Assembly (NCBI RefSeq): GCF_000013405.1
Contig: NC_007759.1
Location: forward strand, 248,001-312,000
DNA length: 64,000 nucleotides
Direction: 5' to 3'
Source: Syntrophus aciditrophicus SB
Lineage (GTDB): Bacteria; Desulfobacterota; Syntrophia; Syntrophales; Syntrophaceae
The notes beneath the pieces were generated by a model that was not told the DNA's origin, made no database searches, and saw only the letters and a list, made by a program, of their open reading frames with translations. Both the position numbers and the translations under genes were made by a program. Shown one piece after another: positions 11,618-32,159 of the stretch (its first letter is position 1; each line of letters opens with the position of its first letter).

Positions 11618-12478
11618 ATGGATGCGTTTTTCCTCTTCTGGCAGCACCTTCCGGAAACCCTCCGGCCGGAACTCTTTTCCATCGGCTCCTTCCAGGTCCG
11701 CTATTACAGCCTGATGTACCTGGCGGCCTTCTGTCTGACCTATGTTCTTGTCATGCACCGGGTAAAAAAGGAAGGCAATTCCTTTTCCGGAGAAACGATA
11801 CAGGATCTTCTGCTCTGGGCCATTCTCGGTTTGGTTGTCGGGGCGCGGCTGGGGTATGTCTTTTTCTATAATTTCAGCTATTATCTGAGCCATCCCCTGG
11901 AAATTCTGCTGCCCTTTGAATTTTCCGGCGGCATCCGGTTTGTGGGCATCAGCGGGATGTCTTATCATGGCGGGGCCATTGGCGCGCTTCTGGCCACGTT
12001 TCTCTTCTGCCGGAAGCGGGGCATTTCCTTCTGGACCATTCTTGAACTCTTTTCGCCCGCCGTGCCCCTGGGCTATACGTTCGGCCGGATCGGCAACTTC
12101 ATCAACGGAGAGCTCTACGGACGGGTGACAACAGTTCCCTGGGGCATGTATTTTCCCCTGGATCCCCTGCATGAGCTTCGTCATCCTTCTCAGCTTTACG
12201 AGGCCTTTTTTGAAGGCATCGTTCTTTTTGCGATTCTCTGGGGCATCCGCAGACGGAGTCCCTTTGACGGTTTTCTCTTCGCTTCCTATCTCTTCGGCTA
12301 CGGTCTGGTCCGATTTTTCATCGAATTTTTCCGGGAGCCGGACGCGCAGTTGGGGCTGATGTGGGGAGGAGTCTTCAGCATGGGGCAGGCTCTCTGCCTT
12401 CTCATGATGGCAGCCGGCGTTCTGGTGTATATTCTTCGCAGGCCGCAGAAGAGCGGATCGCAGGTTGATCCTGTTTAG
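11618..12478 (+). CDS. lgt: Prolipoprotein diacylglyceryl transferase
   Basis: A 286-residue, seven-helix inner-membrane enzyme that attaches diacylglycerol from phosphatidylglycerol to the lipobox cysteine of lipoprotein precursors. It carries GARLGYVFFYN, the SYHGGAIGA region and the signature GRIGNFINGELYGR, then HPSQLYEAFFEG. ATG at 11618 was chosen because it follows the trxB stop and a GGAGG site and gives the normal family length. Confidence 0.95.
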   Translation: MDAFFLFWQHLPETLRPELFSIGSFQVRYYSLMYLAAFCLTYVLVMHRVKKEGNSFSGETIQDLLLWAILGLVVGARLGYVFFYNFSYYLSHPLEILLPFEFSGGIRFVGISGMSYHGGAIGALLATFLFCRKRGISFWTILELFSPAVPLGYTFGRIGNFINGELYGRVTTVPWGMYFPLDPLHELRHPSQLYEAFFEGIVLFAILWGIRRRSPFDGFLFASYLFGYGLVRFFIEFFREPDAQLGLMWGGVFSMGQALCLLMMAAGVLVYILRRPQKSGSQVDPV

Positions 12479-26983: not shown

Positions 26984-27838
26984 GTGACCGTGGCGATGCG
27001 TCCGGATATTCAGGAAAGTTCCGAGGAAAAAGCAGGGTGGAATGCCATCAGGCTGCTGTCCTGGCCGTTTGCCCAACTCGGAAGATCGGTGATCAGCTGG
27101 ATCAACAATTCCGGGGCTGCGGCCATCTTCCTACTGCTCGCTGCCCTGAAAATCTTCCGTCCCCGGCAGCTGATGAAGATCACTCAGCAGATCTATTATA
27201 TCGGGGCGCGTTCCACGATGATTATCATGCTGGTCGGGCTTTTTACCGGCATGGTCCTGGGGCTCCAGTCCTACCATGCCCTGGTTCAGGTGGGCGCGGA
27301 AGGGGCGCTCGGCACCCTCGTCGCCCTGTCGCTGATTCGGGAACTGGGCCCTGTTCTCACGGCGATCATGATAACCGCCAGGGCCGGTTCGGCGATAACA
27401 GCCCAGATCGGTATTGAACGCATCTCGGAGCAGATTGACGCTCTTGACACCATGCACATTGATCCATTGAGATACCTCATCAGCCCGAGAATCGCGGCGG
27501 CAATCATCAGTTTTCCCGTGCTTACGGCGCTCTTTGACCTCATCGGCATACTGGGCAGTTACATTTCCGGGGTCCTGATCATGGGAGCGAATGCCGGCAC
27601 CTTTTTTCATCGGGTTCAGTCCAGCGTGGAAATGTCGGATGTCAACGAGGGATTTATCAAGGCCATTGTTTTTGCTGTTATCGTTTCCACCGTCTGCTGT
27701 TATCAGGGCTATTTTGCCCACATGCGTCCGGACAGCCACGGGGCCAAGGCCGTCGGCCTCTCCACAACCTCGGCCGTTGTGCTTTCCTGCGTGCTGATTC
27801 TGGTATCGGATTACGTGGTCACTTCTCTTCTGATTTAG
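26984..27838 (+). CDS. mlaE: MlaE-type ABC transporter permease
   Basis: Permease of the Mla phospholipid-transport ABC complex in the inner membrane. It has about five hydrophobic segments and the MlaE signature around LIRELGPVLTAIMITARAGSAI, then EIDALDTM-like ISEQIDALDTMHIDPLRYL. GTG at 26984 is the longest start. GTG 26990 has better spacing to GGAG, and ATG 26996 is also possible. It is the first gene of mlaE-F-D-C-A. Confidence 0.93.
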   Translation: MTVAMRPDIQESSEEKAGWNAIRLLSWPFAQLGRSVISWINNSGAAAIFLLLAALKIFRPRQLMKITQQIYYIGARSTMIIMLVGLFTGMVLGLQSYHALVQVGAEGALGTLVALSLIRELGPVLTAIMITARAGSAITAQIGIERISEQIDALDTMHIDPLRYLISPRIAAAIISFPVLTALFDLIGILGSYISGVLIMGANAGTFFHRVQSSVEMSDVNEGFIKAIVFAVIVSTVCCYQGYFAHMRPDSHGAKAVGLSTTSAVVLSCVLILVSDYVVTSLLI

Positions 27839-27846
27839 AGGAGCTT

Positions 27847-29088
27847 ATGGATATACCATTGATTGAATTTCAGGACGTGACGAAACGCTTCGGAGACCGA
27901 ACCGTTCTGGACCGGGTCAACCTGAAGATCTATGAAGGGGAGGTCACAACCATCATCGGCCTCAGCGGCGGGGGGAAAAGCGTTCTTCTCAAGCATATCA
28001 TCGGTTTGCTCAAACCGGATGAAGGGACTATTCTTTTCCGGGGAAAGCCTCTGAACGGGATGTCCAAAAAAGAGAGGTATGCCGCCCTCGGGAGGATGAG
28101 TTACATGTTTCAGGACAATGCGCTTTTCGATTCCATGACCGTTTATGAAAATATTGCGCTGCCTCTCCAGGAGACGATGAACCTGAAAAAAAAGGAAATC
28201 GAGCGCCGGGTCATGGCGAGAATCGAACAGACGGAACTCATCGACGCTGTTCACAAGTATCCCTCCGAACTCTCAGGGGGCATGCAGAAACGAGTGGCCC
28301 TGGCGCGGGCGCTCGTCATCGATCCGCAGATCGTCCTGTTCGATGAACCTACTTCCGGTCAGGATCCCGTCCGGAAAAACGCGATTTTGAGCATGATTGC
28401 CCAGTATCAGAGAAAATTCGGATTTACAGCGGTTCTGGTGAGTCATGAAATTCCAGATGTATATTTTATTTCCAACCGGATTCTCGCTCTTTATGATCGA
28501 ACCATCGTTTTTCAGGGGACTGTGGAGGAGCTTGAAGATTTCGAGCACCCGTTCAAGGATGAAGTCATCCGCAGTCTGGAAGGGCTGCAGGAAGAGTTGA
28601 CGGGGCTGCGGTCCAAGCGGCAGTTCAAGGTCCTCTATCATGCGAATCTGAAACGCAGCGCATTGGGTGAGAGCTATACGGTCCTGGTTTTCACTCTGGA
28701 GGCTCTGGATGCCGTTATCACCGCTTTGGGTTACGATGCGGCGCAAAAGACGATTCATTACATGGGATTGTTTATTGATAAACACTTTGCTCCCATCGGG
28801 GGCTTTTCCACCCGTATCAGTTTTAACGAATTTGTGACCATGCTTCCCTATTCGGATCGGGCTGAGGCAGAGGCCATTGTGAAGGATTTTATCCCCGATC
28901 TGCAGGAAGGAATCCGTCAAATCCAGGAGGGAACAAGGAGGAAGGCGACTTCCGGAGAATGCATCGAATTTGTCGTTCATGCCGGACTGGCCCAGGGGAA
29001 CCCTCTGGAAGAAATAGATTCCGTCATCGAGTCCGCAAAGCGTCAACAAAAAGAAATTGGCCGACTACAGTGCGCCACGCAGGAGTGA
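27847..29088 (+). CDS. mlaF: MlaF-type ABC ATPase with C-terminal degenerate GGDEF-like domain
   Basis: Residues 1-250 are a normal Mla ATPase: Walker A GLSGGGKS, Q-loop FQDNALFDSMTVYEN, signature LSGGMQKR, Walker B VLFDEPTSGQDP and switch His in VSHEI. MlaF proteins usually end near residue 270; this one has 413. The extra part (about 258-405) follows the GGDEF pattern: LEALDAVITALGYDAAQKTI at the IDxFKxxND...GH..GD position, SFNEFVTMLPYSDRAEAEAI at the GGDEF loop, and VVHAGLA...EEIDSVIESAKRQQKEIGRL at the C-terminal helix. The catalytic GG and Asp are lost, so it should not make c-di-GMP. It follows mlaE by 8 nt and precedes mlaD. Confidence 0.93.
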   Translation: MDIPLIEFQDVTKRFGDRTVLDRVNLKIYEGEVTTIIGLSGGGKSVLLKHIIGLLKPDEGTILFRGKPLNGMSKKERYAALGRMSYMFQDNALFDSMTVYENIALPLQETMNLKKKEIERRVMARIEQTELIDAVHKYPSELSGGMQKRVALARALVIDPQIVLFDEPTSGQDPVRKNAILSMIAQYQRKFGFTAVLVSHEIPDVYFISNRILALYDRTIVFQGTVEELEDFEHPFKDEVIRSLEGLQEELTGLRSKRQFKVLYHANLKRSALGESYTVLVFTLEALDAVITALGYDAAQKTIHYMGLFIDKHFAPIGGFSTRISFNEFVTMLPYSDRAEAEAIVKDFIPDLQEGIRQIQEGTRRKATSGECIEFVVHAGLAQGNPLEEIDSVIESAKRQQKEIGRLQCATQE

Positions 29089-29092
29089 ATTC

Positions 29093-29575
29093 ATGAAAAA
29101 GTACGCCATGGAAACAACGGTAGGCATCTTTCTCGCTGTCGGAATTATCCTGATCGGGTACATGACCGTGAAACTCGGTCATGTCTCCCTTTTCGGCGAT
29201 GACACCTATAAATTGTCTGCCCGCTTTACCTCGGTGTCCGGTCTGCGGTCAGGCAGTCCTGTGAATATGCTGGGCATCGAAATCGGCAGGGTGGAAAAGC
29301 TTGCCATAGACCAGCAGGATCTGCGGGCTGTCGTGGAAATGAGTATCAGGAAGGACATCAAGATCTATGACGACGCTATTGCCTCCATCAAAACGGAAGG
29401 ACTCATCGGTGACAAATATCTCAGCATCGATCCGGGGGGCGGCGGAGATCCTCTTCAGCCGGGCGGGACAATTACGGAAACGCAGCCGGCGCTGGATATC
29501 GAGAACCTCGTCAGCAAGTACGCCTTCGGAGAGGTAAAAAAAGCGGACAGTACGGATAATACAGACAAAAAATAA
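29093..29575 (+). CDS. mlaD: MlaD-type MCE-domain protein
   Basis: A 160-residue periplasmic protein with an N-terminal membrane anchor (about 9-26, VGIFLAVGIILIGYMTV) and one MCE domain (about 38-118: ARFTSVSGLRSGSPVNMLGIEIGRV, IKTEGLIGDKYLSIDPG). It forms the hexameric lipid-binding ring of the Mla complex. ATG at 29093 has AGGAG upstream; its start lies just after the mlaF stop. Confidence 0.94.
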   Translation: MKKYAMETTVGIFLAVGIILIGYMTVKLGHVSLFGDDTYKLSARFTSVSGLRSGSPVNMLGIEIGRVEKLAIDQQDLRAVVEMSIRKDIKIYDDAIASIKTEGLIGDKYLSIDPGGGGDPLQPGGTITETQPALDIENLVSKYAFGEVKKADSTDNTDKK

Positions 29576-29587
29576 AAAGGATGAATT

Positions 29588-30184
29588 ATGAAGAGACTGT
29601 TCATGAACGTTATTTTCCTGTTGCTTCTGCTGTTGCCTTCATCTGTATTTGCCGGTGTGCCTCTGGATACGGTTCAGGTCAATGTGAACAAGGTGCTTGA
29701 GGTTCTGCGCGATCCGGCACTCAAGCCGGCGTCAGCCAAAACGGTAAAAAAAGAGAAACTCCGGGTGATCTACGAGCGCATGTTCGATGAGGTCGAACTG
29801 TCCCGGCGCGCCCTGGCGAGACACTGGAACAGCCTCAACGCCGCTCAGCGTCAGGAATTCGTTCATCTCTTCCGGCAGGTGCTGGAGAATGCCTACATCG
29901 ACAAAATCCTGTCCTATACGAATGAGAAAATTGTTTTTGACAGAGAGAGAATGCTGTCGGCAAACCAGGCCGAGGTTACGACGAGAATTGTGACGTCTTC
30001 CAAGACGATTCCCATCACCTACCGGGTCATTCAGAAGGGAGGCATCTGGAAGGTCTATGACGTCGTTGTGGAGAACGTCAGTCTGATCCAGAATTACCGT
30101 ACGCAGTTCAATGAAATCCTGAACGGTCAGAAGCCCGAACAACTGCTTCAGACCCTCAGGAAAAAGGTGAAGGAACAGCAGTAA
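29588..30184 (+). CDS. mlaC: MlaC-type periplasmic phospholipid carrier
   Basis: A 198-residue secreted protein with signal peptide MKRLFMNVIFLLLLLLPSSV ending near FAG. The body matches the Ttg2D/MlaC family (FDEVELSRRALARHWNSLN, FVHLFRQVLENAYIDKILSY, VYDVVVENVSLIQNYRTQFN). It ferries phospholipids between outer and inner membrane. AAAGGA ribosome site; 12 nt after mlaD. Confidence 0.93.
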   Translation: MKRLFMNVIFLLLLLLPSSVFAGVPLDTVQVNVNKVLEVLRDPALKPASAKTVKKEKLRVIYERMFDEVELSRRALARHWNSLNAAQRQEFVHLFRQVLENAYIDKILSYTNEKIVFDRERMLSANQAEVTTRIVTSSKTIPITYRVIQKGGIWKVYDVVVENVSLIQNYRTQFNEILNGQKPEQLLQTLRKKVKEQQ

Positions 30185-30216: not shown

Positions 30217-31266
30217 ATGAAAAAGCTCCGCTTATCCGTTTTTTTTCTTCTTGTCCTTAGCATTGTTGCGGGTTCCGCCGATCGATCGGATGCTTCGATT
30301 TTCCCGGCGGGAACTGTGGCGCCCTTACAGCAGGGGATTGCAGGAGAATCCATTCATGAAGCCCCTGTTGTTCGGGGATTGCCGGAAATGTCTGCAACGC
30401 CCGGGCCGATGCATGTCCAAGGCATGCAGATTTGCGCTGCCGCAGCCGTAAGGACTGAAGAGAAGGCAGAAGGAGACGAAGAAGCCGGGAACGTTTCCGA
30501 CCCGATGGAATCCCTTAATGCGCCGGAGGCGGAAGGTGCAGAGGAAACAGATGTTTCCGATGACCTGGAATCGGACTATCTGCCGGAAGAAGGTGAGGAG
30601 CAGCCGACAGTAACGATCTCCGATCCCCTGGAGCCCTTCAACCGGGCCATGTATCATTTCAACGACAAGCTTTATTTCTGGCTGCTCAAGCCCGTGGGCC
30701 AGGCCTATGGCAAGGTTGTACCCGAGCCGGCGCGGATCAGTGTCCGGAATTTCTTTTCCAATCTGGCCTTTCCGTTCCGATTTCTAAGCTGCCTGCTGCA
30801 GGCGGATTTCCGCGGCGTTGCCACGGAAACAGGCCGTTTCACCGTCAACACAATCTGGGGTATCGGAGGTTTTCTGGATGCGTCATCGAGCAGGGAGTTG
30901 AATATCCCGAAACAGGATGTGGATCTGGGGCAGACCCTCGGTGTTTACGGTGTGGGGCATGGGTTTTATTTCGTCTGGCCGGTATTCGGTCCTTCCAGTC
31001 TGCGGGATTCCGCAGACATCGTGGGTGGATTTTTCCTCGATCCCGTTAATTATCTGAATCCCTGGTACACGCCGGCGGCCGTTCATGGATATGAAGCGGT
31101 AAACGAGACCTCCCTGACTATAGGGGATTATGAGGCGCTCAAGGGAGCGGCCATCGATCCTTATGTCTCCATCCGGGATGCCTTTGTCCAGTACCGGAAG
31201 AAGAAGATTGACGCCCGGAAGGTCAAGATGGAACATTCTGGATCGGTGGAAACGCAGAAAAAATGA
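30217..31266 (+). CDS. mlaA: MlaA/VacJ family protein with acidic repeat insert
   Basis: A 349-residue outer-membrane component of the Mla pathway. The MlaA domain starts near 135 (SDPLEPFNRAMYHFND) and continues with RISVRNFFSNLAFPFRF, RFTVNTIWGIGGFLD, GQTLGVYGVGHGFYFVWPVFGPS (in part) and DPVNYLNPWY. The signal sequence (1-26) has no lipobox cysteine, whereas MlaA is normally a lipoprotein. Between signal and domain is a 108-residue linker. Its acidic part repeats the motif SDPMES (94), SDDLES (114), SDPLEP (135). Confidence 0.93.
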   Translation: MKKLRLSVFFLLVLSIVAGSADRSDASIFPAGTVAPLQQGIAGESIHEAPVVRGLPEMSATPGPMHVQGMQICAAAAVRTEEKAEGDEEAGNVSDPMESLNAPEAEGAEETDVSDDLESDYLPEEGEEQPTVTISDPLEPFNRAMYHFNDKLYFWLLKPVGQAYGKVVPEPARISVRNFFSNLAFPFRFLSCLLQADFRGVATETGRFTVNTIWGIGGFLDASSSRELNIPKQDVDLGQTLGVYGVGHGFYFVWPVFGPSSLRDSADIVGGFFLDPVNYLNPWYTPAAVHGYEAVNETSLTIGDYEALKGAAIDPYVSIRDAFVQYRKKKIDARKVKMEHSGSVETQKK

Positions 31267-31358: not shown

Positions 31359-32159
31359 ATGATTGAGAAAATTCTTAAATTCACAACGATTGTCTTTCTG
31401 ATCTTATTTTTGATTTCAGGAACCGCTGCCGCGGGCGGCCTTTTCGGTCCACCGCAGCCTCTTTCCAGGAAGGACGGCGGGTTGAATACCGCCATCGGAT
31501 ATGCGCACCATGAGAATAAATTCGAGAATGGTGAAGAATACGTCATCAGGCAGAAGCAGATTTACTCGCAGGCAGCCTGGGGTGCCAGTAATCTCTGGGA
31601 AGTATATGGAAGAATCGGCATCGCCGATCTGGAAATCGACGATGCCTTTCGATCCTCTGGATCGACAACGTCGTCCCGATTAGATTTCGAAGACAGGGAA
31701 AACATCTTTGGCGCCCTGGGGGCGAAGGTCTTCTATCCCTTCCGGAAGACCCTTGGAATCGGAATCTTCATCCAGGGTTCTTACTTCTTCAGCGACTTCA
31801 GGGACAACGTTTCGGGCATTTCAAATGGCAGATTTTATACCACGGAACTCAAAGTGAAAAACCTCTGGGATATTGAATCGGGAATCGGTCTGCAGGCCGT
31901 AGGACCCTGTGGGATCAAACTGTATGCCGGACCCTATGTCTATTATTCCGAAGCCGATGTATCCCCGTCGAGGAGCATTGCGGGACTTCGATTGGCGGCC
32001 GGCGAGGGTACGATAAAAAACAGGAGGGAGGCGGGAGGCTTTGCGGGTATTCTTGTGCCTCTGGGCAAAGGGTTTCATCTGAATATGGAAGGCCGGTATT
32101 CCGAGAAGTTTTCGGCTGGGATTGCCGTTTCCTACACCTATCAGAATCGCCGGCCGTAA
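31359..32159 (+). CDS. Outer-membrane beta-barrel protein
   Basis: A 266-residue protein with a signal peptide (about 1-25, FLILFLISGTAAAGG). The rest alternates in short amphipathic strands (LNTAIGYAHHENKF, QAAWGASNLWEVYGRIGIA, GIFIQGSYFFSDF, LYAGPYVYYSEADV, AGIAVSYTYQNRRP), the pattern of a small outer-membrane barrel. It lies directly after the Mla operon and may be cotranscribed with it. No specific family is recognised and there is no evidence for a cargo. Confidence 0.75.
   Translation: MIEKILKFTTIVFLILFLISGTAAAGGLFGPPQPLSRKDGGLNTAIGYAHHENKFENGEEYVIRQKQIYSQAAWGASNLWEVYGRIGIADLEIDDAFRSSGSTTSSRLDFEDRENIFGALGAKVFYPFRKTLGIGIFIQGSYFFSDFRDNVSGISNGRFYTTELKVKNLWDIESGIGLQAVGPCGIKLYAGPYVYYSEADVSPSRSIAGLRLAAGEGTIKNRREAGGFAGILVPLGKGFHLNMEGRYSEKFSAGIAVSYTYQNRRP

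Follow-up and report, generated by a model that had tools for sequence, protein, structure and literature searches.

An mlaA gene of Syntrophus aciditrophicus without a lipobox and with a long acidic N-terminal linker, a possible recruiter of the lipid carrier MlaC

The window, by which we mean the whole stretch of 64,000 nucleotides analysed here (Syntrophus aciditrophicus SB, NC_007759.1, positions 248,001 to 312,000), contains the following genes and features around mlaA, numbered from its first letter.

26984-27838, + strand: mlaE (Pfam, ORF list)
27847-29088, + strand: mlaF (Pfam, ORF list)
29057-29575, + strand: mlaD (Pfam, ORF list)
29588..30184, + strand: mlaC, the proposed partner of the linker (Pfam MlaC, E 4.7e-46; an alignment places an Arg opposite R90 of E. 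coli MlaC)
30217-31266, + strand: mlaA ORF, 349 aa
30619..31203, + strand: MlaA domain (PF04333, residues 135-329; Pfam; Foldseek best match 5nuo_D, E 4.3e-11)
31204..31263, + strand: C-terminal extension, basic and with no acidic tail (residues 323-349 net +6; AF2 helix 315-348)
31359..32159, + strand: outer-membrane beta-barrel gene directly after mlaA (AF2, Foldseek)

The gene at 30217-31266 is a true mlaA. The Pfam MlaA domain (PF04333) is matched over residues 135-329 with an E-value of 2.6e-66 and 223.5 bits, against a gathering score of 25, and this is the single match of the family in the genome, which is a single contig of 3,179,300 bases. In an AF2 model built on an alignment of 44 sequences the domain is predicted confidently, with 189 residues at pLDDT >=90, and the nine PDB chains that Foldseek matched at E <=0.001, with 5nuo_D as the best, are each from an entry of an MlaA complex. 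Two observations concern the genes upstream. The C-terminal part of mlaF (28612-29085, + strand) is an extension of about 155 residues that matches GGDEF only weakly (E 0.0054): the 17 bits are under the Pfam cut-off of 23.8, and the signature appears degenerate by eye, SFNEF replacing GGDEF. Looking over the ORFs from mlaE to mlaA in passing, we noticed no separate mlaB.

MlaA is generally presented as a lipoprotein. In the window MlaA the region ahead of the domain has these features.

30217..30279, + strand: signal peptide, residues 1-21 (sequence; AF2 helix 2-17)
30274..30276, + strand: codon TCC, encoding the Ser20 that stands where the lipobox Cys would be (sequence comparison)
30280..30621, + strand: disordered linker, residues 22-135 (AF2 pLDDT)
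30487..30621, + strand: acidic proximal 45 residues of the linker (91-135), net charge -15, the proposed MlaC bait (charge count)

The N-terminus, MKKLRLSVFFLLVLSIVAGSADRSDASIF, has no Cys around the end of its hydrophobic stretch and is not matched by the prokaryotic lipoprotein pattern in its PROSITE form. It has AGSAD where most lipidated relatives show GCAH (AGCAH in many), and Ser20 thus occupies the lipobox Cys position, in agreement with an earlier sequence-only reading of this DNA, which had noted the lack of a cysteine at the cleavage site. An alternative upstream start with a lipobox is ruled out. There is no ATG, GTG or TTG in the 34 open in-frame codons upstream of the mlaA ATG, and the lipobox is therefore not concealed by a wrong start call. 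Genes for both Lgt and LspA are present in the genome, indicating that lipidation is available to the host; lgt (prolipoprotein diacylglyceryl transferase) is found in the same window at about 11666-12433 (+ strand, converted from genome coordinates). With Ser in place of the lipobox Cys, the protein would most likely be exported as a signal-peptidase-I protein, for which possible sites, read by eye, are found after A21 (AGSA/DR) or A26 (SDA/SI), and its MlaA domain would most likely be what retains it in the outer membrane. If the signal peptide were instead left uncleaved, it could anchor MlaA in the inner membrane, with the linker spanning the periplasm. This would be in keeping with the absence of a Cys for SPaseII and with simple arithmetic, as about 110 disordered residues, if extended, could bridge that distance. 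We regard it as highly unlikely, however, as A-x-A-like sites follow the hydrophobic stretch both here and in several lipobox-less relatives (again by eye), and as relatives that have a lipobox possess linkers of comparable length.

The sequence-only reading had also proposed that the first motif of the MlaA domain was duplicated into the linker, producing an acidic tether that might bind porins, lipid heads or calcium instead of using a lipid anchor. The proposal was based on three decamers.

30490..30519, + strand: NVSDPMESLN, residues 92-101, lacking in the three congeners examined
30550..30579, + strand: DVSDDLESDY, residues 112-121, within a genus-conserved acidic (D/E)L(E/G)SDY(V/L)PEE stretch
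30613..30642, + strand: TISDPLEPFN, residues 133-142, the true MlaA domain start (Pfam, linker comparison)

All three are present, starting at residues 92, 112 and 133, and the last is indeed where the domain begins (Pfam places its start at residue 135); what was not upheld is that they form a repeat. The spacing of 20 and 21 residues is in favour of duplication, as is the likeness of the first decamer to the third in this species, since their BLOSUM62 score of 32 of 54 was equalled only once when the linker was shuffled 20,000 times with its composition preserved. The second decamer, however, resembles the third only weakly (14 of 54), and none of the three congeners examined has the first: opposite it the genus alignment has a variable stretch with EGTTPEESLT, EASAPSESVK and ESVAPGTSPE. 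A shuffle test of this kind (300 shuffles) gave p values of 0.43, 0.75 and 0.98 for these three congeners, and put 9 of 115 proteins at p <0.05, which is little above chance. At the DNA level the first and third decamers share 18 of 30 bases, a value reached by 0.4% of codon shuffles, and four of their five identical residues are encoded by different codons. A recent duplication does not look likely from the DNA, though the 18/30 identity is itself unusual. Given the missing copies, the weak second copy and the differing codons, together with the presence of the linker in relatives that have a lipobox, we reject the motif duplication, and consider a duplicated tether of this kind most improbable. 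The likeness of NVSDPMESLN to the domain start is an observation on this single species for which we have no explanation.

The acidic, unstructured tether ahead of the domain is itself well borne out. In addition to the net charge of -15 beside the domain, AF2 gives pLDDT values mostly <50 at residues 31-102, with block means of 64 for residues 121-130 and 85 for residues 131-140. Relatives were collected from 155 genomes of the order Syntrophales, 104 with and 51 without a match to the window MlaA at E 1e-10; some of the 51 are 98-100% complete. Classing by lipobox covered 106 rows from the order, which include seven MlaA paralogues and some fragments, and 40 hand-chosen places, one row each. 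A second or alternative MlaA-like gene is found in some genomes of the order (L032, L033, L034, L035, L111, L112, L113), and six of these seven show a lipobox together with an H(S/T)VxEF(S/T)DDE segment ahead of DPW, L035 being incomplete. In all 95 orthologues of the order the 45 residues ahead of the domain are acidic, with a net charge of -3 to -18 (median -9), and in the 91 with longer linkers this acidity is concentrated by the domain, at -0.21 per residue versus -0.06 further out. The linker sequence is poorly conserved and its composition is conserved. Acidic linkers are found alike in orthologues with a lipobox and in those that lack one, and the linker therefore does not replace the anchor; the idea that it is a substitute for lipidation is rejected. 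Neither did our analysis provide support for a porin, lipid-head or calcium ligand.

The lipobox pattern is matched by 53 of the 95 orthologues, with start codons set by a hydrophobicity rule rather than a signal-peptide program. The three congeners of the window MlaA all fail it, L025 despite a Cys in VSVPC. Mapped on a tree built from 102 domain sequences, the 95 orthologues and seven outgroup rows, the trait shows 19 changes, or 18 without L020, a doubtful match to the pattern for which both counts were made. Within the order there are 16 changes, and at least six are forced by well supported branches. In several proteins the context is kept and the Cys alone is altered: AGFAH (L055), AGYAH (L022, L069), AGSSH (L018), VGSAH (L087) and ADFAH (L066). 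The lipobox thus comes and goes in the order while the acidic N-linker stays, which suggests that the lipid anchor is unlikely to be a defining trait of MlaA and that lipidation may be optional for its function. Earlier work ties the origin of MlaA to the lipoprotein pathway Lol (PMC10665443). MlaA proteins without a lipobox are already known. Among 21 species two classes, with and without a lipoprotein signal peptide, have been described, which mostly cluster apart on the tree; the class without it is reported from Neisseria, Pseudomonas, Caulobacter and Campylobacter, with D. vulgaris also listed, and the MlaA of N. gonorrhoeae, which likewise has no Cys, was found in cell-envelope and vesicle fractions only (PMC6424457). 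A review repeats that some MlaA proteins lack the lipoprotein Cys (PMC11131202). Our addition is the frequent switching inside one order, and in the open-licence literature we found no report either of such switching or of an acidic N-linker.

Downstream of mlaA, 70 of the 95 rows of the order have a homologue of the barrel gene. Its product in the window (31359-32159) has no Pfam or NCBIfam match, and is predicted by AF2 to be a beta-barrel (mean pLDDT 71.7 on five sequences), with Foldseek matches to NalP, FapF and OmpT-like barrels. It is a candidate partner of MlaA in place of OmpC. The linker could in that case dock MlaA on an outer-membrane barrel, possibly this one, rather than on MlaC, and besides the frequency of the barrel gene after mlaA it may be relevant that E. 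coli MlaA functions in a complex with OmpC/F (PMC10719372). We find this improbable, since 24 of the 95 rows, with 464-1529 bases of downstream flank and no barrel homologue therein, keep the acidic linker, and since E. coli MlaA is located within the bilayer and touches porins at their subunit interfaces (PMC10719372). The presence of the barrel also shows no relation to that of the lipobox (Fisher p 0.82, with one row that lacks a flank scored as having the barrel), and the idea that loss of the lipobox goes with the barrel gene is rejected on this basis.

The E. coli MlaA has an acidic C-terminal tail that recruits the carrier MlaC electrostatically (PMC10719372, PMC10245069), in which the residues I241/L245/I248 and D243/D244 are used; biolayer interferometry of the tail with MlaC gave a Kd of 57 uM (PMC10245069). 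A tail of this type is absent from the window MlaA, and past the domain the C-tails of the 95 orthologues have net charges of +5 to -3 (median +2). Acidic-hydrophobic segments were recorded at both ends of a wider set of MlaA proteins. Removal of 2 fragments, 21 duplicates and 5 startless or open-ended rows left 338 rows, and removal of one further row without a hydrophobic start left 337. The Syntrophales contribute 100 of these, including five paralogues excluded from the 95 orthologues, and 73 of 80 named GTDB loci were left after filtering. The phylum or class names of some relatives are our own assignments or rest on a named locus of their group.

In the rows examined, placement of the segment at the N- or the C-terminal end is near-exclusive: 195 have it in the N-linker alone, 62 in the C-tail alone, 3 at both ends and 77 at neither. 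Under six alternative definitions of the segment the pattern stays the same, with 3-15 rows that have it at both ends and odds ratios between 0.017 and 0.040. The wider phylum outside the order (40 rows) has 29 N only, 1 C only and 10 neither; the named GTDB loci (73 rows) have 50 N only, 6 C only, 1 both and 16 neither; and the Campylobacterota (25 rows) have 12 N only and 13 neither. For the class of Cupriavidus (49 rows) the numbers are 1 N only, 30 C only, 1 both and 17 neither, and for its phylum (47 rows) 3, 23, 1 and 20, where the Gamma and Pseudomonadota rows are the best-scoring matches, up to 30 each, plus 40 hand-picked places and so not a random sample. N-linkers with a net charge of -4 or lower are found in 105 of the 121 rows that end no more than eight residues past the domain. 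The MlaA of a Nitrospirota MAG (L215), for example, has LEDEFDDFSDEFE in its N-linker, and that of a genome from the phylum of Cupriavidus (L357) has DDEFGDDFDDDFDDEFDE in its C-tail. The lipid anchor is dispensed with more often in the N-type than in the C-type, the lipobox pattern being matched by 80 of 195 N-only rows versus 47 of 62 C-only rows. Some rows from the phylum of Cupriavidus (for example L305, L308 and L310) have a very short N-terminus with no N-segment, and also no lipobox. The row counts of the N/C split overstate the evidence, since the split needs few switches and the pairs test is without power: on a tree of 252 of the 337 rows, with the Syntrophales thinned to 15, there are 3 (strict) to 5 (relaxed) switches, and an independent-pairs test on the same rows found on average less than one informative pair in each of four runs. 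The exclusivity may thus reflect a few old events.

We tentatively favour, at a little short of even chances, the reading that the N-linker is an MlaC-recruiting bait at the end opposite to that used in E. coli. Under this reading the disordered linker of about 110 residues would reach into the periplasm and its acidic 45 residues beside the domain would recruit the lipid carrier MlaC by charge, taking the role that the acidic C-tail has in E. coli. Electrostatic recruitment of MlaC would fit the linker better than porin, lipid-head or calcium binding. Hydrophobic residues at helical spacing (phi-x3-phi-x2-phi or phi-x2-phi-x3-phi in an acidic context) are found in 34 of 96 N-linkers, where shuffles gave a mean of 14.4 and a largest value of 25, in 20 of 99 Syntrophales N-linkers (mean 8.0, largest 16) and in 12 of 62 C-tails (mean 5.2, largest 12). 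The number of rows that have neither segment, 77 of 337 with 13 of the 25 Campylobacterota among them, counts against the reading.

The evidence from the MlaC patch, as read from alignments, is mixed. The docking patch of E. coli MlaC is basic and includes K84/R90 (PMC10719372), though in the E. coli MlaC record compared here residue 83 is Lys and 84 is Ser, so that the K84 of the paper is off by one. In the window MlaC the R90 position is taken by Arg, with Arg also at 80 and Asn-Ser at 83-84. At N-type loci the R90 position is Arg or Lys in 126 of 170 and Gln in 40 of 170, and just 7 of 14 C-type loci have a basic residue there, which indicates that R90 is no marker of C-tail docking. A basic residue at 83 or 84 occurs at 108 of 170 N-type versus 13 of 14 C-type loci. 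The median net charge of the MlaC core is 0 in N-type versus +2 in C-type loci, and MlaC is therefore not more basic alongside an acidic N-linker in these 170 N-type and 14 C-type loci.

Acidic stretches are a common means of keeping proteins soluble, and the linker might accordingly be a generic disordered spacer or solubility segment for periplasmic transit, with no specific partner. The lack of a matching rise in MlaC basic charge would be expected in that case, as would the poor conservation of the linker sequence beside a conserved composition and the pLDDT of <50 across much of its length. Acidic disordered segments may moreover be common in periplasmic linkers; the sole base-rate control used, MlaC, which is a folded protein, gave 29 of 241. 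A generic spacer would not, however, account for the concentration of acidity beside the MlaA domain or for hydrophobics at helical spacing above the shuffle level, and the linker is equally present in lipobox relatives, which would have lipoprotein transport. We consider the generic spacer rather unlikely, but a serious alternative to recruitment of MlaC.

Extended to the family, the recruitment reading would mean that the MlaC-recruiting element of MlaA has changed ends, being an N-terminal acidic-aromatic bait in relatives from the phylum of the window, in Nitrospirota and in part of the Campylobacterota, more often C-terminal in Pseudomonadota and almost never present at both ends, and that with an N-bait lipidation is optional and freely gained and lost. 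We put this forward as a speculation that is possible though on balance doubtful. If the linker does recruit MlaC, the pick-up of the carrier as established in E. coli could be put to the test in a second architecture that occurs in several phyla. Calling MlaA-family proteins lipoproteins from family membership alone can mislead.

The window MlaA has the fold of the solved MlaA structures 5nuo, 5nuq, 5nur and 8i8r (Foldseek), and its gene resembles mlaA / vacJ in context, being encoded downstream of mlaE, mlaF, mlaD and mlaC. It differs from the usual MlaA / VacJ in having no lipobox, an acidic N-linker of about 110 residues and no acidic C-tail, and its score against the NCBIfam equivalog NF011672, 117 bits, is far below the cut-off of 375. 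In having no lipoprotein Cys it is like the class without a lipoprotein signal peptide (PMC6424457), for which the passages of that paper used here make no mention of an acidic N-linker; the two classes are there mostly apart on the tree, whereas here there are 16-19 changes in one order and its outgroup rows. The linker is like the C-tail of E. coli MlaA in being flexible, acidic, joined to the MlaA domain and provided with hydrophobics at helical spacing; it is found at the opposite end of the domain, and MlaC binding, which is established for the tail, is what we infer for the linker.
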